A model generated the notes under the pieces. It did not search any database. It saw nothing but the letters and a program-made list of their open reading frames with translations, and was not told the origin of the DNA. Below are positions 1,169 to 26,994 of a DNA stretch of 28,504 nt, piece after piece. Origin of the DNA: Burkholderiales bacterium. GTDB taxonomy: Bacteria; Pseudomonadota; Gammaproteobacteria; Burkholderiales; Casimicrobiaceae. Within the stretch, counting starts at the first letter, position 1. Every line of letters starts with the position of its first letter. The translations under genes were made by a program, and so were the position numbers. The DNA lies in contig JANXNO010000453.1 in NCBI GenBank assembly GCA_025354075.1, forward strand, positions 1-28,504, given 5' to 3'.

Positions 1169-1939
1169 TTACGGCGCAGCCCTCGGATGTCGCAGCGCAT
1201 GCTCCACAGCGCGACGCATTTGTTCCGCCTGAAAGTCACTTTGCGGCAGTAGCGTGTCGCCGCGGGCGAAGGCTTGGGCTAACTCCTGGGTGGCTTGCGG
1301 GTGTTCGAGCGATGCGGCGCGCAGATACCAGCGCATGGCTTCGCGCGGGTCGGTATCGACGCCTTCGCCGCTGGCGTACGCGTTGCCGAGAAGATACATC
1401 GCCTCGGGCATGTTTTGCCGCGCGGCAAAGCGAAAGTGCACCGCAGCGGCGACCGGATCGGCGGGTTTGCCGTAACCGCCCTTTTCCATGATGCCGAGGT
1501 AATACGCGGCATGTGAATTGCTGCCCGGTTGGGCGCGTTCAAACCACGCCCGCGCTTTGTTGGCGTCCGCTTTGCGGCCTGATGCGGGTAAGCCGAACAG
1601 CCATGCTTTGCCGAGCATGATCATGGCGCGCGTGTCGTTCTGCGCGGCGGCGCGCTCCAGCCACATTATGCCTTCAGCAGCGCGCGTTTGATCGGCGCGA
1701 TTCAATAGTGCTTCGCCCGCAGCACGTTGCGCGTCGGCGTTGTCGGTGCGCGCTGCGACCAGCAAAGCGTCAAGCGCGGTGTTGTCTCGACCGGCGTCGG
1801 CGTACATGCGCAGGCGGTCGATTTCGGCGGGAGAGGGCGAGACAAGAGGCGCAGCAAACGTTGTGCTTGCCCAAACGAATGTGGACACCATCAGCATCCA
1901 CTGCGAGTGGACTTTACTGAGCACGCTGAGCGCCCTCAC
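1169..1939 (-). CDS. Exported Sel1-repeat (TPR-like) protein
   Basis: The protein has several Sel1-like repeats of about 36 residues, with typical cores such as AMIMLGKAWLFG, AAYYLGIMEKGGYG and AMYLLGNAYASGEGV, covering roughly residues 65-240. These alpha/alpha solenoids mediate protein-protein contacts; no enzymatic motif is present. The N-terminus has basic/polar residues, a hydrophobic stretch WMLMVSTFVWAS and a likely signal peptidase I site TFA/AP, so it is probably periplasmic. The start is uncertain. The longest frame begins with GTG at 1937-1939, which lies inside a REP palindrome, and an ATG at 1895-1897 would give a shorter signal sequence. It has no operon partner: arsH is convergent and the next minus-strand gene upstream is separated by the REP. 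The specific role is unknown. Confidence 0.8.
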   Translation of the reverse strand: MRALSVLSKVHSQWMLMVSTFVWASTTFAAPLVSPSPAEIDRLRMYADAGRDNTALDALLVAARTDNADAQRAAGEALLNRADQTRAAEGIMWLERAAAQNDTRAMIMLGKAWLFGLPASGRKADANKARAWFERAQPGSNSHAAYYLGIMEKGGYGKPADPVAAAVHFRFAARQNMPEAMYLLGNAYASGEGVDTDPREAMRWYLRAASLEHPQATQELAQAFARGDTLLPQSDFQAEQMRRAVEHALRHPRAAP

Positions 1940-1970
1940 CCCAACCCTCTCCCGCGCGCGGGAGAGGGGG
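1931..1970. repeat. REP-A palindromic element
   Basis: CCCTCACCCCAAC is followed by a perfect 24-bp palindrome at 1945-1968 (CCCTCTCCCGCG and its complement). The same 23-base left flank plus stem recurs, inverted, at 20259-20297 and 21570-21609 within uvrA. It lies between the cpdB-like gene and the Sel1 gene and overlaps the most upstream possible Sel1 start codon. Confidence 0.85.
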
Positions 1971-16387: not shown

Positions 16388-19300
16388 TTAATGCAAGAAC
16401 TCGGCTAACACCGCCCCCGTGTGCGATTTCGCCCGTGCCTTCAGTAGCATTGGCACGTTGCCAGCAACCACCACGTTGCCGCCACCGGTGCCCCCTTCCG
16501 GGCCCATATCGATGATCCAGTCCGCTTCTGCGATCAGGTCGAGGTTGTGTTCGATGAGGATCACTGTGTTGCCAGCTTCAACCAGTCGATGCAGTACGTG
16601 GATGAGCTTTTCAACGTCAGCCATGTGCAGGCCGACAGTGGGTTCGTCGAGTACGTAAAGGGTGTGCGGATTCAGCGCGCGGCGACCGTGCGCCTTTGCC
16701 TTCACGGCAACGGCCGGGCCGTTTTGCTTTGCCAGCTTTTGCGCGGCTTTCGAGAGTTTTGGCGCATCCTTCGGATCGGTGCTTTCGGTGAGGAAGACGG
16801 GGGCTTTGACTTTTGAAAGCTCGGTCACCAGTTTGATGCGCTGCGCCTCGCCGCCGGAAAGTGTCGGGCTCGGTTGGCCCAGCGTGAGATAACCCAGGCC
16901 CACGTCCTGCATGAGCTTGAGTGGGTGATGTATCGACGGCATCGTTGCAAAGAAATCTACCGCATCGTCGACATCCATCGCCAGCACATCGCCGATAGAT
17001 TTTCCGTGCCACAAGACAGCGAGCGTCTCGCTGTTGAAGCGTGCGCCATTGCACACATCGCAAGGCAGCTTTACATCGGGCAAAAAATTCATTTCGATGG
17101 TGATCACGCCCGCGCCGGAACACGCATCACAGCGGCCACCTGGGGTGTTGAACGAGAAGCGGCCCGGCCCGTAGCCGCGCATTTTCGCTTCCAGCGTTTC
17201 GGCGTAAAACTTGCGAATGTTGTCCCAGAAGCCGATGTAAGTCGCAGGGCAGGAGCGCGGCGTTTTGCCGACTGGCGTTTGATCGACTTCGAGCACCCGG
17301 TCAACGTCCTCCCAGCCTTCGAGCGACGCGCAGCCATTCAGGGCTGGCGCTTTCTTGCGATTGTTGCGCGCGCTGACGAGTGCTTCCAGATTGCTGTACA
17401 TGACTTCGCGCGCAAGCGTCGATTTGCCAGAGCCGGAGACGCCGGTGATGACCGATAGACGAGACAGGGGCAACTTCGCAGATACGTTGCGCAGATTGTT
17501 CAGCGTCGCACCTTTGACTTCGACGAACAAATCGCACTTGCCGACCGGCGCTCGCTTGTGCAGCGGATGCTTGAGCGGATTCTTGAGGAAACGCCCGGTG
17601 ATTGAGGCGGGGTTGCCCTTGATTTCCTCGTAGGTACCTTCCGCCACGATTTCCCCGCCGCGCACACCTGCGCCGGGGCCGAAGTCGATGATGTGATGAG
17701 CGCGTTTGATCGTGTCTTCGTCATGTTCAACAACGATCAGCGTATTGCCTTTCGCCTGTAATTTTTCGAGCACATCAAGCAGGATGCGGTTGTCGCGCGC
17801 ATGCAGACCGATGGTTGGCTCATCCAGTACGTAAGCTACGCCTTGCAAGTTTGATCCCAGTTGCGCGGCGAGACGAATGCGTTGTGCTTCGCCACCCGAA
17901 AGCGTCGGCGCAGAACGATCCAGCGTCAGGTAACCGAGGCCCACCTCCTGCAAAAATTGCAGGCGCGATTTCACCTCGGACACAATGTCGCGAGCGATCT
18001 CTTCTTCGCGCGGGCCGAGCTTCAATTCACTCATGAAACGCTCAACTTCGATGACCGAATGTTTCACCAGCGCATGAATGCCTTCATCGCGGAAGCGTAC
18101 GTTGCGCGCAATTGGATTCAGGCGAGCGCCGTCGCAGGCGATGCACACTTCGAACGCCTCTTTTGCGTCGAGGAATGCATCAAGTTCACGGTCCGCGAAT
18201 TCCTCGCTCACGCGATCATCGCGTTTGTAGCCTTTGACGCTTTCGCCCATGCCTTGGCACGCCGTACACCAGCCGTGTTTGCTGTTGAACGAGAAGAGGC
18301 GCGGGTCGAGTTCCGCGAAGCTGGTGCCGCAACTTGGGCAGGCGCGTTTGGTGGAGAACACGACAAGTTCGGCCTCACCGCTGCCCTTCTTCCACGCCAG
18401 AACATGCACCACCCCTTTGCCATAGTCGAGGCCGGACGAAAGCGCTTCGCGCAAGGGCTTTTCTTTCTTGGCGTTGACTTCAACGGTCGCTACGGGCAGC
18501 TCAATCGTGTGCTCGGCAAAGCGATCCAGCCGCGGCCAGGGCGCGACTGGTATCAGTTCTCCGTCGACGCGCAAATGCTCAAAGCCTTTGCCCTTGGCCC
18601 ATTTCGCGAGATCGGTGTAGAGCCCTTTGCGATTGATGACCAGCGGCGCGAGCACGGTGGCGTTGCGACCTTTGAACTCACGCAGCACGCGTGACGCAAT
18701 CGCATCGAGTGACTGTGGCTCAATCGGAACGTCGCAGGTAGGACAATACTGAGTACCGAGCTTCATCCACATCAGACGCAAAAAGTGATAAATCTCGGTT
18801 AGCGTGGCTACTGTTGATTTGCGCCCGCCGCGCGACACACGCTGCTCGATGGCAACGGTGGGTGGAATGCCGTGAATCGCGTCCACGTCAGGTCGTGCAG
18901 AAGGTTGCACAAATTGCCGTGCATAAGCGTTCAGCGATTCGAGATAGCGGCGTTGTCCTTCGTTAAAAATGATGTCGAACGCGAGCGTCGATTTGCCCGA
19001 CCCCGATGGCCCGGTAATCACCGTGAAACCCTTCGCCGGAATCTCCACGCTGACGTTTTTGAGGTTGTGTTCGCGGGCGTGCAGGATGCTGATCGACTTA
19101 GCCGCAGCGCGCGTCATGTAAGCGGCGCGCGGCTCTTCAGCGCGGGGCTGGTTGCTAAGCTTCAGCGCCGCCAGATCACGGTCATAGTCGTTGAGCGCTT
19201 TGCCCGTGTGTGATCGCGCGTCATGGCGGATACCGTTGGGCGTGCCTTCGAAAATGACCTCACCGCCCGCGTCGCCGCCTTCCGGGCCAAGGTCAATCAG

Positions 19301-22300
19301 CCAGTCGCTCGCGGCAATCAGATCAAGATTGTGTTCGATGACGAGGATGGAATGACCGGCATCAATCAGTTTGTCGAACGCGCGCAATAGCTTGGCAATG
19401 TCCTCGAAGTGCAGACCCGTCGTGGGTTCGTCAAATACGAATAACTTGCCACGCGGATGTTTTGCGTCTTCGGGTTTGATGCGCTTGGGCAGCATCGCAA
19501 TAGGGCGGCCCCCCTCAGAACCCGCGCTTTCGGCCAGATGGCCAGCAAGCTTCAAGCGCTGTGCTTCGCCGCCCGAGAGCGTCGGCACCGGTTGCCCAAG
19601 GCGCACATAGTCCAGACCCACATCGGCGAGCGGTTGCAAGGTGCGCAGCACTTCAGCGCCACCCTTGATGTCTTTAAAGAACAGCAGCGCTTCGCTGACC
19701 GTCAGGTCGAGCACATCGCTGATGCCTTTTTCGTTCACCTTAACTTCACGCACTTCAGCGCGGAAACGCGTGCCATCACAGTCCGGGCAGCGCAAGTACA
19801 CATCGGAGAGGAATTGCATCTCAACGTGTTCAAAGCCCGAGCCGGAGCAGGTGGCGCATCGGCCATTGCCCGCGTTAAAGCTGAATGTGCCAGCGGTGTA
19901 GGCGCGCTCGACCGCCATCGCGGACTTCGCGTAAATCGCGCGGATCGCATCGAACGCGCCGACGAAACTGGCGGGATTGGAGCGCGATGATTTGCCGATG
20001 GGCGATTGATCGACAAACACGACATCGTCGACGTTTTGATGTCCGAGCAACAAGTCGTATGTGCCGGCAGTGTCGGTGGTTTTGCCCTTTGCTTTGTACA
20101 GCGCAGGCACCAGAATGTCCTGCACCAGCGAAGACTTGCCCGATCCGGAAACGCCCGTGATGGTGACCAAGCCGCGCAGCGGGAAGCTGACCGTGATGCC
20201 CTTGAGATTGTTCTCGCGGGCGTTGGTGAGAACTATCTCGTCCAACCCGACGCTGGCTCCCTCTCCCGCAAGCGGGAGAGGGTTGGGGTGAGGGTGGTTC
20301 TTGGCGCTGCTAGCAAACTTGGACTTTGCGACCCGCGCACCCCCACCCGCAACTCCTCCGCCTCTTATAGGAGAGGGGAGCAAATTAGCGGACGACGCAA
20401 CCAGCGTGCGATGCGTTCGCGATATCCGCTCTCTCCCCAACAGATAAGCCGCCGTCCGCGAGTCCTTGGTCGTCGCCAATTCCCTTGGCGCGCCATCAAA
20501 AATAATCTCACCGCCACGCTCGCCCGGCCCTGGCCCAACATCCAACAATCGATCCGCAGCAAACATGATCTGCGGATCATGTTCCACCACGACCAGCGTG
20601 TTGCCGGCGTTGCGGAGCCGCTGCATGACGCCGATGATGCGCGACATATCGCGTGGATGCAGGCCGATGGACGGCTCGTCAAGCACGAACAGCGTATTGG
20701 TCAGCGACGTGCCGAGCGCTGTCGTCAGGTTGATGCGTTGCACTTCACCGCCGGACAACGTTCGCGATTGTCTGTCCAGCGTGAGATAGCCGAGACCGAC
20801 ATCGCACAGGTAACCGAGCCGCCCGCGAACCTCACCGAGCACGAGTTCGCCTGCTTCATCAAGCACGGCACCGTCGCCGTGAAAGTCAAGTTCACCAAAG
20901 AAGCTGCGCAATTTCGAAATCGGCAAAAGCATCAAGTCATGAATCGTGAGCCCCGGCAGAGCTTCAAGCGTTTCCCGTGAAAATTTGAAGTGGCGCGGAG
21001 AAAAGCGTTTCGTTGCGACCAGCACGGAATCTGCATTTGCCTTCGAACCAAGGCGGAAATTCAGCGACGTCGGCTTAAGCCGCGCACCTTCACAGGCAGG
21101 GCACGGCGTGTACGCGCGGTACTTCGACAGCAGTACCCGAATGTGCATCTTGTACGCCTTCGTCTCCAGCCAGTCGAAGAAACGGCGCACGCCGTACCAC
21201 TTCTTGTTGTTATCCTTTTCCCAACTGCGCCAGGTGTCATCGCCCTCGACAACAAAGCGCCGATCCTGCGGTCCCATGTCGCGATACGGCACATCCATCG
21301 GGATGTTGCGCGCCGCCATGTATTTTTTGAGATCGTCCTGACATTCCTTGAAGCTCGGCGTCTGCCACGGCTTCACGGCTCCCTCAGCAAGCGTCTTGCC
21401 TTCATCGGGAATGACCAAGCCAAGATCAACACCAATCACCCGACCAAAGCCACGACAGGTGTCGCAGGCACCGAGCGGATTGTTGAACGAAAAGCTGGAG
21501 GCGTGTGGGTCGGAGTAGGTGATGTCGCAGGCGGCGCAGTGCAGGTCGCTGGAGTAACGCCAGACAGCACCCTCTCCCGCAGCGCGGGAGAGGGTTGGGG
21601 TGAGGGCGGTTGCGTTCGCAGTTGAATCTCCCGGGCTCGGAACGCCATCTCCCTCATCCGCCCTGTCGGGCACCTTCTCCCGCGCTGCGGGAGAAGGGCT
21701 CGCTGCGTCTACCGCAAAGATGTTCACCCGCCCTTTTCCATGCAACAGCGCCGCCTCCAGTGCCTCCATCACGCGCGCCTTCTCGGCGGTGCCGATGCGC
21801 ATGCGATCCTGCACCACATGCAACAACGTCGCGCCGTCGCGCTTCTCCTGAGAATGCACGCGGGTGTAGCCCTGCGCGGACAGAAACTGCTCGACCTCTG
21901 CCTCCTTGAAATTCTCTGGTACGGTCACGGGAAACGTGATCGCCACACGCGGATCATTCGCTTTCGCGGCACGTAATTTCAGATCAACATAAATCGTGTC
22001 AGCACTGTCCCGCGTCACCTTCGCGCCGCAGTTTTGGCAGTGCAACGCCGCCAGTCGCGCGAACATGAGCTTCAGATGATCGTTGACCTCGGTCATGGTG
22101 CCAACCGTTGAACGCGAAGTGCGCACCGGGTTGGTCTGGTCAATCGCAATCGCGGGCGGAATGCCTTCGATGCGATCTACCTGCGGCTTGTCCATGCGGT
22201 CGAGGAACTGCCGCGCGTACGGCGAAAACGTCTCGACGTAACGGCGCTGACCTTCGGCATACAGCGTGTCAAACACCAGCGACGACTTGCCGGAACCGGA

Positions 22301-22489
22301 TACGCCAGTGACGACGGTCAACTCGCCGGTGTGGATATCGAGATCAATATTCTTGAGATTGTTCTGCCGCGCACCGCGAATGCGGATGTCGGTGCTGGCC
22401 GTTGTCGCCAGTGCGCTAGGCGCGGGCGGTGCTACAGATGACGTGGATGCGAGGGATTTGGCGGAAGGACGTTTGCGGCTGGCTGCCAT
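16388..22489 (-). CDS. uvrA: Tandem-duplicated UvrA (four-ATPase excinuclease ABC subunit A homologue)
   Basis: At 2033 residues this is about twice the usual UvrA (about 940). The first unit (about 1-1120) and second unit (about 1125-2033) each contain two ABC-type ATPase domains. Walker A motifs of the G[VP]SGSGKS[ST] type are near residues 62, 778, 1158 and 1680; LSGGE[VA]QR signatures are near 576, 965, 1525 and 1874; DEP Walker B motifs follow each. Zinc-finger cysteine pairs (CPACEGARL, GRCATCSGSG...CPDCDG, GRCDACSGAG...CDVCNG) are kept. UvrA recognises damaged DNA and loads UvrB. Tandem forms are a known minor class whose role is less clear, and a canonical uvrA probably exists elsewhere in the genome. 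The first unit carries two insertions (about residues 265-307 and 701-744) encoded by REP-type repeats. M1125 could serve as an internal start. No LexA box or strong Shine-Dalgarno was seen upstream. Confidence 0.93.
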   Translation of the reverse strand: MAASRKRPSAKSLASTSSVAPPAPSALATTASTDIRIRGARQNNLKNIDLDIHTGELTVVTGVSGSGKSSLVFDTLYAEGQRRYVETFSPYARQFLDRMDKPQVDRIEGIPPAIAIDQTNPVRTSRSTVGTMTEVNDHLKLMFARLAALHCQNCGAKVTRDSADTIYVDLKLRAAKANDPRVAITFPVTVPENFKEAEVEQFLSAQGYTRVHSQEKRDGATLLHVVQDRMRIGTAEKARVMEALEAALLHGKGRVNIFAVDAASPSPAAREKVPDRADEGDGVPSPGDSTANATALTPTLSRAAGEGAVWRYSSDLHCAACDITYSDPHASSFSFNNPLGACDTCRGFGRVIGVDLGLVIPDEGKTLAEGAVKPWQTPSFKECQDDLKKYMAARNIPMDVPYRDMGPQDRRFVVEGDDTWRSWEKDNNKKWYGVRRFFDWLETKAYKMHIRVLLSKYRAYTPCPACEGARLKPTSLNFRLGSKANADSVLVATKRFSPRHFKFSRETLEALPGLTIHDLMLLPISKLRSFFGELDFHGDGAVLDEAGELVLGEVRGRLGYLCDVGLGYLTLDRQSRTLSGGEVQRINLTTALGTSLTNTLFVLDEPSIGLHPRDMSRIIGVMQRLRNAGNTLVVVEHDPQIMFAADRLLDVGPGPGERGGEIIFDGAPRELATTKDSRTAAYLLGRERISRTHRTLVASSANLLPSPIRGGGVAGGGARVAKSKFASSAKNHPHPNPLPLAGEGASVGLDEIVLTNARENNLKGITVSFPLRGLVTITGVSGSGKSSLVQDILVPALYKAKGKTTDTAGTYDLLLGHQNVDDVVFVDQSPIGKSSRSNPASFVGAFDAIRAIYAKSAMAVERAYTAGTFSFNAGNGRCATCSGSGFEHVEMQFLSDVYLRCPDCDGTRFRAEVREVKVNEKGISDVLDLTVSEALLFFKDIKGGAEVLRTLQPLADVGLDYVRLGQPVPTLSGGEAQRLKLAGHLAESAGSEGGRPIAMLPKRIKPEDAKHPRGKLFVFDEPTTGLHFEDIAKLLRAFDKLIDAGHSILVIEHNLDLIAASDWLIDLGPEGGDAGGEVIFEGTPNGIRHDARSHTGKALNDYDRDLAALKLSNQPRAEEPRAAYMTRAAAKSISILHAREHNLKNVSVEIPAKGFTVITGPSGSGKSTLAFDIIFNEGQRRYLESLNAYARQFVQPSARPDVDAIHGIPPTVAIEQRVSRGGRKSTVATLTEIYHFLRLMWMKLGTQYCPTCDVPIEPQSLDAIASRVLREFKGRNATVLAPLVINRKGLYTDLAKWAKGKGFEHLRVDGELIPVAPWPRLDRFAEHTIELPVATVEVNAKKEKPLREALSSGLDYGKGVVHVLAWKKGSGEAELVVFSTKRACPSCGTSFAELDPRLFSFNSKHGWCTACQGMGESVKGYKRDDRVSEEFADRELDAFLDAKEAFEVCIACDGARLNPIARNVRFRDEGIHALVKHSVIEVERFMSELKLGPREEEIARDIVSEVKSRLQFLQEVGLGYLTLDRSAPTLSGGEAQRIRLAAQLGSNLQGVAYVLDEPTIGLHARDNRILLDVLEKLQAKGNTLIVVEHDEDTIKRAHHIIDFGPGAGVRGGEIVAEGTYEEIKGNPASITGRFLKNPLKHPLHKRAPVGKCDLFVEVKGATLNNLRNVSAKLPLSRLSVITGVSGSGKSTLAREVMYSNLEALVSARNNRKKAPALNGCASLEGWEDVDRVLEVDQTPVGKTPRSCPATYIGFWDNIRKFYAETLEAKMRGYGPGRFSFNTPGGRCDACSGAGVITIEMNFLPDVKLPCDVCNGARFNSETLAVLWHGKSIGDVLAMDVDDAVDFFATMPSIHHPLKLMQDVGLGYLTLGQPSPTLSGGEAQRIKLVTELSKVKAPVFLTESTDPKDAPKLSKAAQKLAKQNGPAVAVKAKAHGRRALNPHTLYVLDEPTVGLHMADVEKLIHVLHRLVEAGNTVILIEHNLDLIAEADWIIDMGPEGGTGGGNVVVAGNVPMLLKARAKSHTGAVLAEFLH
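20259..20297. repeat. REP-A palindrome inside uvrA, in frame
   Basis: The 24-bp stem-loop at 20259-20282 (CCCTCTCCCGC-AA-GCGGGAGAGGG) and its conserved flank TTGGGGTGAGGG are the inverse of the copy at 1931-1970. Read with uvrA it encodes HPHPNPLPLAGEGAS in the linker between the first and second ATPase domains of unit 1, with no stop codon. Confidence 0.85.
20340..20380. repeat. Probable second repeat element inside uvrA
   Basis: A C/G-rich stretch with CCTC-TTATAGGA-GAGG around 20360-20377 encodes LLPSPIRGGGVAGGG, about 45 bp from the REP-A copy. The peptide has the low-complexity, repeat-derived look of dispersed elements rather than of UvrA sequence. There is no second copy in the window to prove repetition. 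Confidence 0.4.
21570..21609. repeat. REP-A palindrome inside uvrA (proximal insertion, copy 1)
   Basis: CCCTCTCCCGC-AGC-GCGGGAGAGGG at 21570-21594 is followed by the conserved flank TTGGGGTGAGGG. Read with uvrA it gives ALTPTLSRAAGEGA, a different reading frame of the repeat from the one used at 20259. It lies just before the first zinc-binding segment (LHCAACD). Confidence 0.85.
21648..21697. repeat. REP-A variant inside uvrA (proximal insertion, copy 2, opposite orientation)
   Basis: CTCCCTCATCCGCCCTGTCG leads into the stem CCTTCTCCCGC-GCT-GCGGGAGAAGG (21673-21697). It faces the neighbouring copy at 21570, so the two form a BIME-like inverted pair. In uvrA it encodes the segment SPAAREKVPDRADEG. 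Confidence 0.75.
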
Positions 22490-24330: not shown

Positions 24331-24426
24331 TCGCGTGTCATCGCCCGTGGCATGGATGCTGCAAAACAGGCAAGAGCACATTCGTGTTTCCTAGTACGCA
24401 CGACCCCAAATCACAGGAGATCCATC

Positions 24427-24909
24427 ATGCCCACCGTCACTAAACCCGCCCATGTCAAAGGTGACTTTCTCGTTAACTACGAAGAGAAAGTTTTTGAAGA
24501 TGTCAAAGCCGATCCCGGTGAAAAAGCGCTCGTGACTTTTCACACTGTGGCCTTTGAAGGCTCCATCGGATTCGTCAATCTGCTGCAAGCCACGCGCTTG
24601 CAGCGCAAAGGCTTCGAGACCTCGGTCCTGCTATACGGTCCTGGCGTCACGCTCGGCGTACAGCGCGGCTTCCCGACGCTTGGTGACGAAGCATTCCCCG
24701 GTCATCTGAACTTCAACAATCAGATCAAAAAATTCATGGAAGAGGGCGGCAAGGTCTATGCCTGCCGCTTTGCGCTGCAAGCGTTGTACGGTCATGGCGA
24801 GCCGTCGTTGATACCTGGCATTCGCGCGATTAGTCCACTCGACGTGCTCGACATTGTGCTGCTGCATCGCAAGGACAACGCGTTCATTCTGGACACCTGG
24901 ACACTGTAA
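24427..24909 (+). CDS. MSMEG_0572/Sll0783-family nitrogen-starvation response protein
   Basis: The 160-residue product matches the Sll0783/MSMEG_0572 family, which opens Nit1C clusters and has no assigned biochemical function. Recognisable segments are [39 protein letters not shown] and the C-terminal half with [16 protein letters not shown]. The fold hints at a DsrE-like small alpha/beta protein, but that is an impression. ATG 24427 is preceded by AGGAG with a seven-base spacer, which decides this start over an in-frame ATG at 24322 lying inside the operator repeats. It is the first gene of the operon, and the nitrilase gene follows after two bases. In Synechocystis the homologue has been tied to nitrogen-starvation responses. 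Confidence 0.88.
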
Positions 24910-24911
24910 TC

Positions 24912-25961
24912 GTGAGCATGCCTCGCATCATCAAGGCCGCAGCAGTTCAGATCACGCCCGATTTCGAGCAGGTCGACGGCACGCTGAACAAGGTGTGCGA
25001 GGCGATTGATTCGGCTGCGGATCAAGGGGTACAAATCATCGTCTTCCCCGAGACGTTTGTGCCCTACTACCCGTATTTCTCGTTCGTGAAGCCGCCGGTG
25101 CAAATGGGTGCCGATCACATGCGCCTGTATGAGCGCGCCGTGGTGGTGCCGGGGCCAGTGACGCAGGCGGTAGCGGAGCGGGCGCGCGCTCGCGGCCTCG
25201 TGGTCGTGCTCGGCGTCGACGAGCGTGACCACGGTAGCCTTTACAACGCGCAACTCATTTTTGATGCGACAGGTGAGCTATTGCTCAAGCGGCGCAAGAT
25301 TACGCCCACGTTTCATGAGCGCATGCTGTGGGGCATGGGCGACGCCAGCGGCCTCAAGGTGGTAGACACCCACGTGGGCCGCGTTGGTGCGCTCGCCTGC
25401 TGGGAGCACTACAACCCGCTGGCACGTTACGCACTGATGACGCAACATGAAGAGATTCACTGCGCGCAGTTTCCCGGCTCGCTAGTCGGCCCGATCTTTG
25501 GCGACCAGATCGAAGTCACGATTCGTCACCACGCACTGGAGGCGGGCTGTTTTGTGATCAACGCGACCGGCTGGCTGACCGATGCGCAAATCACCGCCAT
25601 CACGCCCGATCCGGCGTTGCAAAAGGGCTTGCGTGGCGGCTGCAACACCGCGATTGTTTCGCCGGAAGGCGTGCATCTGGCACCACCCTTGCGTGAAGGT
25701 GAAGGCATGGTGATCGCTGATCTCGACATGACGCTGATCACCAAGCGCAAGCGGATGATGGACTCGGTCGGGCACTACGCACGGCCCGAGTTGCTGAGTC
25801 TTGCGATTAACGATCAGCCTGGCGCGACATCGCGCCCGATGTTTGATGTAGCACACGAAGGACAAGATCATGACGACCAACGTACCCAGCCTCGCCACGC
25901 TCCCACCAGCCAGTCGCCAACTGATGACGGAGCTGCAATCCACCGGATTAAGGCTGCTTGA
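24912..25961 (+). CDS. Nit1-type nitrilase (Sll0784 family)
   Basis: This carbon-nitrogen hydrolase hydrolyses nitriles to acid plus ammonia by family. The catalytic set is present: E47 in [12 protein letters not shown]129 in [11 protein letters not shown] (with E136) and the nucleophile C163 in LACWEHYNP. The Nit1 group is defined by its place in the Nit1C cluster, which has been associated with use of cyanide or nitriles as nitrogen source; the natural substrate is not known from sequence. The start is GTG 24912, with ATG 24918 as an alternative, and neither has a clear Shine-Dalgarno, suggesting coupling to the previous gene. The last 31 codons overlap the start of the radical SAM gene in another frame and have a polar, unfamiliar composition ([12 protein letters not shown]...), beyond the family's usual end near [16 protein letters not shown]. 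Confidence 0.93.
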
Positions 25962-26994
25962 TCCGAGCGCGGGCGCGGCGAGTCGTCGCGGCGGCGCGGG
26001 GCCGTCCGACCACAAGGCGGTGACGGTCGACGGCCACACCATCATGGTGCCGGTTCACACGGCCACCGCGTGGACGTCACCTTTTGTCGCCGAAGCACCG
26101 GATGCATCGGGCAACAGCCGATTAATGCGCGGCACCATTCCGATTGCCAGCATCACCTTTCCCAAAGCGCCGCGCTTCTACGCGCTGCAAACGCTCGATG
26201 GCATCCCGTATTCGCATATCGCAACGCTGCACAGCTCGGACGTGCTCGCCACCACCGTGCTGCAAAACTGCATTCGTTACGAAAGCCGCAAGAAAACCTG
26301 CAAGTTCTGCGCGATTGGACAATCGCTGGCTGCGGGCCGCACCATCGCGCACAAAGCGCCGCAGCAACTGGCAGAAGTAGCGCGCGCCGCCGTGTTGCTC
26401 GATGGCGTTAAGCATATGGTCATGACCACCGGCACACCGAACGCCACAGATCGCGGTGCGAGCGTGCTTTGCGACAGTGCTTACGCGATCAAAGCCGCAG
26501 TAGATCTTCCGATTCAGGCGCAGTGCGAACCGCCGGATGATGACCAATGGTTCGTGCGCATGAAGGCGTCTGGCGTTGACACGCTGGGCATGCATCTCGA
26601 AGTGGTGACGCCCGAATTACGCGCGCGAATCATGCCGGGCAAAGCTTCGGTGCCGATTGAGCGCTATATGTCGGCGTTCGCCGCATCGGTTGGTGTGTTC
26701 GGTCGCGGGCAGGTCAGCACCTACATCCTCGCGGGCTTGGGCGACACCAGCGAAGCGATTTTGAACATCAGCGAAAAGCTGATCGCGCTCGGCGTGTATC
26801 CGTTCGTCGTGCCGTTTGTGCCGATCAGTGGCACGCCGCTGGAAGACCACGCAGCGCCGTCGCCCGAGTTCATGAAAAGCATTCTCGCGCTGCTGGGTGC
26901 GATGCTCAAAGCAGAGAATCTGCGCTCGTCCGAAATCAAGGCGGGTTGCGGCAAATGCGGTGCCTGCTCCTCGCTTTCAACATTCGAGGTGTGA
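25870..26994 (+). CDS. MSMEG_0568/Sll0785-family radical SAM protein
   Basis: The 374-residue product belongs to the biotin-synthase-like radical SAM family of Nit1C clusters. The cluster-binding cysteines are C134, C144 and C147, an unusual C-x9-C-x2-C spacing in [19 protein letters not shown] instead of the common C-x3-C-x2-C. A second group, C360, C363 and C366 (GCGKCGAC), near the C-terminus could hold an auxiliary Fe-S cluster. [11 protein letters not shown] near the N-terminus is also typical of the family. The ATG at 25870 has AAGGA seven bases upstream, which favours it over the in-frame ATG at 25924 even though it lies 92 bp inside the nitrilase frame. The reaction catalysed is unknown. 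The acetyltransferase gene starts two bases after its stop codon. Confidence 0.9.

Follow-up and report, generated by a model that had tools for sequence, protein, structure and literature searches.

Palindromic repeats translated within a tandem uvrA gene, and their probable relationship to a palindrome-bracketed DUF559 nuclease gene

The window analysed here is a stretch of 28,504 nucleotides from a Burkholderiales bacterium of the Casimicrobiaceae (assembly GCA_025354075.1, contig JANXNO010000453.1, positions 1 to 28,504). It contains a uvrA gene encoding two UvrA units in a single frame, in which two inserts made of repetitive extragenic palindromic (REP) sequences are translated as part of the protein. 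An 80%-identical named homologue, found among the 120 homologues listed, suggests that the organism stands near Casimicrobium. The features in question are given below, REP-A being a palindrome that also occurs outside genes; genomes and loci that have to be told apart carry our own numbers (G and L).

16388..22489, minus strand: tandem UvrA gene encoding 2033 amino acids, both UvrA units in the same frame, host of both inserts
21570..21703, minus strand: insert 1 (residues 263-306 approximately), a doublet of inverted palindromes, missing in several relatives
21652..21697, minus strand: first arm of insert 1, CCTTCTCCC type, translated as PSPAAREKVPDRADEG
21570..21610, minus strand: second arm of insert 1, REP-A, translated as TALTPTLSRAAGEG (residues 294-307)
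20250..20386, minus strand: insert 2 (residues 702-748 approximately), located in the linker that separates the two ATPase halves of unit 1
20340..20382, minus strand: first arm of insert 2, a degenerate hairpin (third arm type), translated as LLPSPIRGGGVAGGG
20259..20297, minus strand: second arm of insert 2, REP-A, translated as NHPHPNPLPLAGEG (residues 731-744)
1931..1970, plus strand: REP-A copy outside genes

Both inserts are inverted doublets, each composed of two different arm types. The first-pass annotation had taken them for REP-A copies, and the segment 21570-21697 for an inverted pair of copies forming a bacterial interspersed mosaic element (BIME). One REP-A arm was indeed found in each insert, and the segment is an inverted doublet, but the partner arms are of other types. 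The same palindrome yields TALTPTLSRAAGEG in one insert and NHPHPNPLPLAGEG in the other, thus the claim that REP-A is open in two reading frames was correct. In the 4.4 Mb assembly a strict palindrome pattern gave 38 forward and 41 reverse matches, the reversed pattern used as control gave 0 and 0; REP-A is, as anticipated, repeated genome-wide, and uvrA has captured a genome-wide repeat in frame at both places. In shape (two inverted REPs, about 100-150 bp) and in copy number in this genome the inserts agree with BIMEs and with REP doublets forming hairpins (REPINs), they depart from them in that both doublets lie inside uvrA rather than outside genes. Folded as single strands, the two inserts are far more stable than shuffled sequence (z -8.50 and -5.44). 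In the predicted structure of UvrA unit 1 the confidence score (predicted local distance difference test, pLDDT) is below 50 at residues 263-306 and 701-745, i.e. at both inserts, and also in eight other short or terminal stretches. Insert 2 maps between the residues aligned to positions 634 and 648 of the UvrA structure 3zqj. Between G000 and G001 the substitutions outside the inserts are concentrated in third codon positions (0.471 vs. 0.106 and 0.067 at the others), thus the tandem uvrA gene is constrained.

Several of 39 aligned UvrA sequences have short loops at both sites, and many contain other repeat-like peptides. Insertion-free homologues thus exist, as the annotation had supposed, and neither equal length at both sites in REP-free homologues nor a REP-A restricted to this locus, the two results that would speak against captured repeats, was obtained. 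The DNA of 20 related genomes revealed six insertion sites in the tandem UvrA. Judged by eye, sites 2 and 6 are the same linker in each of the two units, sites 1 and 5 are the same strand end preceding a zinc finger, and the remaining two fall at domain or unit borders. Nine of 15 tandem uvrA genes of the genus carry inserts, and 18 of the 22 inserts found in these 15 genomes are inverted doublets; the counts were made by eye, G003 (one insert) and G004, whose genes are partial, were excluded, and the gene of G007 is cut short. The inserts come from at least three families, the CCCTC type, a GTAG-type doublet and a ATTCCCGCG doublet. The number of inserts in uvrA tracks the palindrome count of the genome (rho 0.64, p 0.010), as counted with a pattern whose reversed control is nonzero in several genomes. 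A single-unit UvrA exists separately; compared among 15 genomes of the genus, it showed neither such a palindrome nor an inner length difference of at least 10 residues; the difference from the tandem UvrA (0/15 vs. 9/15) has a p value of 0.0007, to be read with the fact that the single-unit protein is half as long.

The GTAG-type doublet was seen at site 1 in G001 (L061) and G013 (L073), the ATTCCCGCG doublet at site 4 in G014 (L074), and a palindrome of one of these two types occupies site 3 of the G013 gene (L073). Linkers of one UvrA are used by unrelated palindrome families, the GTAG type and the ATTCCCGCG type, the latter of which we take to resemble the neisserial dRS3 repeat.

The first-pass annotation had seen a special case in the insertion into a DNA-repair ATPase. 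This could not be upheld: inserts of this kind occur also in recG, mnmG, lipB, dnaG, valS and other genes, where several species often share the site but differ in the repeat family, and in recG and mnmG one site has been filled repeatedly across species. Targeting specific to UvrA was rejected because recG, mnmG and lipB show the same pattern. REPs in uvrA of Opitutus and Thioalkalivibrio have been known since 2013, when it was also guessed that repair genes are favoured for REP insertion, other repair genes being hit as well (PMC3733652).

In 400 kb of G010, 19 of 22 palindrome heads lie within called genes. In larger samples the clusters located in genes were 5 of 28 (G000), 14 of 27 (G005) and 22 of 42 (G010), all these counts resting on gene calls by a simple custom caller. 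The hosts include recG and mnmG (both named by eye), prmC, icmF-like and pbpC-like genes, thyA and metH, further valS, ileS, lpdA, aceF, dnaX and dnaG; the samples contain repair and replication genes along with many others, of metabolism, translation and the cell wall. Five of the ten scanned G005 host genes had no NCBIfam match at 1e-20. Clusters with the CCCTCTCCC head were in genes in 17 of 22 cases in G010, those with the CCCTCACCC head in 3 of 14 (p 0.0017). Four mixed clusters and a partly genic one were dropped from this test, and an element that contributed both its arms entered it once. Three of the 17 are clusters in uvrA, the gene for which that contig had been picked. The subfamily difference, tested by heads, was missing in G000 (p 0.46) and G005 (p 0.19).

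In certain species some of these host-gene sites contain, between the palindromes, an in-frame DUF559 domain. At 15 of 24 DUF559 loci of the genus and its kin the two sides bear a matched pair of perfect hairpins, as opposed to 2 of 4000 random positions; 26 of the 28 DUF559 matches were entered in this test, the motif being missing in two. A wider, genome-wide scan was made with an alignment of these DUF559 domains, and the best 80 of 580 loci were used, which span Proteobacteria, Nitrospirae, Chloroflexi, Planctomycetes and other phyla. Eight of the 80 were too close to a contig end and one had an N in its flanks; at 55 of the remaining 71 the inverted repeat joining the two sides beat all 148 displaced windows of the same loci (0/148). 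By eye, nearly all arms of this set are C/T-rich hairpins of the kind described. The scan was seeded mostly by palindrome-bracketed copies and was therefore repeated with the Pfam model, which detected DUF559 in 46 of 150 genomes sampled from the phylum, including that of the window. Of the 29 new loci five were dropped for a missing motif, and matched arms were present, by the same limit, at 16 of the 24 testable copies. Arm distances correlate with nuclease distances in Mantel tests, made like the length measurements below with a looser edge rule that gives arms at 57 loci.

The element has a median length of 464 bp (range 383-856) in 57 loci whose arms come from a looser edge rule, and in 23 of the 57 the frame is open through both arms. 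The first-pass annotation had considered that the repeat might be selected to stay open. Such selection is unneeded and was rejected, the arms of 73 DUF559 elements being open in 74.9% of the six frames vs. 75.2% after single-base shuffling, i.e. with no excess over the shuffles. The DUF559-bearing proteins (best 120 of 365) are about 214-680 residues long and include LipB, MetRS, RecX, a BioA-like protein, a helicase and many HsdS. Among the 103 fusions with enough sequence flanking both sides, REP-like peptides occur on both sides of the domain in 84 (left 99, right 87), and in 12 of 232 windows elsewhere. A Pfam scan of four fusions returned only host domains and nuclease-family models, no dedicated search for splicing domains having been made. 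At one and the same valS loop, L339 of an Anaerolineales genome (assigned to valS by eye) has DUF559 and G010 has a doublet.

Several single loci were observed besides. On pSymB of Sinorhizobium meliloti Ak57 (L347) a DUF559 gene stands between double palindromes that have a spacer of about 50 bp in common. Many of 150 plasmid records contain short matches to this query, and the palindromes, we assume, may relate to the rhizobial RIME repeats. In Rickettsiales AM-377-L16, DUF559 and palindromes stand in frame in genes that by eye are mfd-like and valS-like (L283, L306), which raises the question whether the rickettsial palindromic elements share the same origin. G063, G110 and G129 have several DUF559 copies per genome, and the arms, where found, differ between copies. 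A DUF559 gene with matched palindrome arms is present in Caulobacter sp. (L282); Caulobacter is readily handled in the laboratory, and its VsrA has already been studied.

REP-A of insert 1 agrees in 41 of 41 nucleotides with an arm of the DUF559 element in lipB of G004, a close relative, thus insert 1 and a coding element have a terminal sequence in common. Against the same element REP-A of insert 2 scores 30 of 41 and the extragenic copy 37 of 41, the remaining two arms of the window match it poorly, and the three other uvrA arms match the five compared loci less well than REP-A of insert 1 does. Arms of the CCTTCTCCC type adjoin DUF559 in L280, L315, L352, L367 and L374 (by eye). DUF559 is matched twice in the genome of the window. 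One domain match has a TAG at its border, and the other, in lipB, is cut by the contig end.

The predicted DUF559 fold is matched best by the solved DUF559 protein itself, next by the catalytic domain of I-Bth0305I, a homing endonuclease, and also by Vsr. Fold matches of lower rank were disregarded, as were chance hits of profile A3 to toxin chains (E >0.1). The modelled catalytic domain of this putative endonuclease has the EDxHD/Vsr homing-endonuclease fold. DUF559 proteins are described as Vsr-like members of the PD-(D/E)XK group (PMC12907096), I-Bth0305I as an example of the EDxHD homing endonucleases (PMC3943268).

Palindromes accompany DUF559 genes, fusions to host proteins are in frame, and one orthologous site occurs empty, with a doublet, or with the nuclease. 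We think it likely that the REP-DUF559-REP unit is a mobile element and that the uvrA inserts are its nuclease-less forms (REP doublets or REPINs), movement being inferred from comparison; the repeat behaves as if mobile, in support of the first-pass annotation. The full element would be a DUF559 gene of about 380-860 bp in all, placed between inverted C/T-rich palindromes, and the uvrA inserts would be nuclease-less copies belonging to a family of small mobile elements. Owing to their many one-sided runs of pyrimidines or purines the arms would have few stops without selection, so that a conserved gene could be left with an intact, slightly longer frame when a copy lands in phase in one of its surface loops or linkers. 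Some full copies may be translated as a nuclease domain within the host protein. Conserved genes would keep solely the in-phase copies located in loops, and the proteins bearing them presumably stay functional. The nuclease may recognise the arms or the empty site, cut at or near the palindromes and so drive their spread, with repair copying the element and doublets being carried along, mobilised in trans. A broader proposal would make DUF559 the dedicated enzyme of many orphan REPs, an in-frame homing element without splicing that inhabits loops of essential proteins across phyla, with the CCCTC-type REPs and REPINs, those of this uvrA included, as its nuclease-less offspring; on this our judgement is evenly divided.

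Several observations weigh against this interpretation. Matched arms are missing at 16 of the 71 and 8 of the 24 DUF559 loci, the Mantel tests leave shared ancestry in the correlation of arms and nuclease, a common fold proves no function, and the pattern for REP peptides was composed after examples were already known. G014, with the most palindromes (218), has no DUF559 match (this genome is 80% complete), and G007 has DUF559 without any match to the head pattern. The head pattern also matches when reversed (G014 56 and 41, G001 24 and 24, G005 12 and 14), the palindrome counts are therefore rough. Where a site has both doublets and DUF559 copies, the arm families of the two are mostly different, thus deletion in place is not demonstrated. 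No intact full element was seen among the two DUF559 matches of the window's own genome, and no intact parent copy is demonstrated there in view of the TAG in one and the contig end in the other. Movement, excision or target duplication was not seen in the compared genomes, no junction being readable because the linkers around the inserts are too variable. We looked for strain-level empty sites as well. Among the best 25 of 150 Sinorhizobium plasmid records the left flank is covered by the source record alone, all seven Azospirillum plasmid records covering at least 80% of the query include DUF559, and neither set yielded an insertion junction. In E. coli all 20 matches listed are bcsG, the neighbour of the Cedecea copy, four records with 80-95% lying outside that list.

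Alternatively, DUF559 could be a passenger with a role in mismatch repair or restriction, caught between palindromes that are moved by another enzyme, e.g. a REP-associated tyrosine transposase (RAYT). The many fusions to HsdS of restriction systems among the listed proteins fit this idea, as does the Caulobacter DUF559 protein, which acts with a solitary methyltransferase (PMC12907096), and RAYT-family genes are present in 20 of the 22 genomes searched. However, RAYT counts do not track palindrome counts, and none of ten RAYT-family loci (the top matches in ten genomes other than G000) had CCCTC-type hairpins in the windows used. RAYT was therefore rejected as partner of these palindromes, contrary to the first-pass annotation; DUF559 genes do have such hairpins adjoining them, and their arms are close, inverted, matched and varying with the nuclease. 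We consider the passenger role unlikely. Somewhat less probable still is that the inserts entered tolerant loops long ago as neutral insertions and that recombination between repeats later swapped their sequence, no active mobile system being left. The reuse of equivalent linkers in the two UvrA units (by eye), the predicted disorder of the inserts and the use of one valS loop in two phyla are in line with it, but empty sites are common, and presence, family, frame and cargo at one site vary among close relatives. That repair genes are preferred because altered repair proteins favour mutators, a speculation in PMC3733652, is very improbable, since hosts such as uvrA, recG, dnaX, dnaG and a DNA-damage helicase stand beside metabolic, translation and cell-wall genes, and the single-unit UvrA is free of such inserts in the 15 genomes compared.

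It is instructive to compare the proposed nuclease-linked element with known systems. REPs, BIMEs and REPINs associated with RAYT are likewise short inverted doublets in many copies, some in genes including uvrA, and the rickettsial palindromic elements are likewise translated in frame in many proteins (both from PMC3733652). Unlike in the RAYT-linked REPs, the partner here is a DUF559 nuclease and not a tyrosine transposase, most uvrA inserts lack GTAG ends, and one subfamily is mostly within genes in one genome. From the rickettsial elements ours differ by the nuclease-bearing form at the same sites and by hosts in many phyla. Homing endonucleases of the EDxHD group such as I-Bth0305I, and inteins, are also small nucleases within conserved genes, whereas here the insert stays in the reading frame, its ends are inverted palindromes, and no intron or splicing domain was seen, a dedicated search not having been made. 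In contrast to the Vsr endonuclease, most copies are palindrome-bracketed. Miniature inverted-repeat transposable elements (MITEs) similarly share their ends with a longer coding form; here no target duplication is demonstrated, and the parent encodes a nuclease rather than a transposase of a kind known to us. REPs within uvrA being already reported in PMC3733652, the novelty seems to lie in the ownership of the palindromes by DUF559. Titles and abstract beginnings of the open-access literature naming DUF559 contain nothing on REPs, the family having been searched under this name alone.

Elsewhere in the window, at 24400-26000, short genes follow a MocR-like regulator; by eye, one resembles a nitrilase gene.

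REPs are common in bacteria, and for some REP families we know of no enzyme. A nuclease with a homing-endonuclease fold that is bracketed by palindromes and covaries with their arms is a candidate REP enzyme, which can be tested in vitro. If the proposal is correct, it would assign a role to a widespread family that is still named DUF, account for the unusual inserts rich in proline and glycine that core proteins contain, and mean that mobile DNA can inhabit conserved genes without splicing. Nuclease-linked palindromes in core genes point to a little-noticed kind of mobile DNA.
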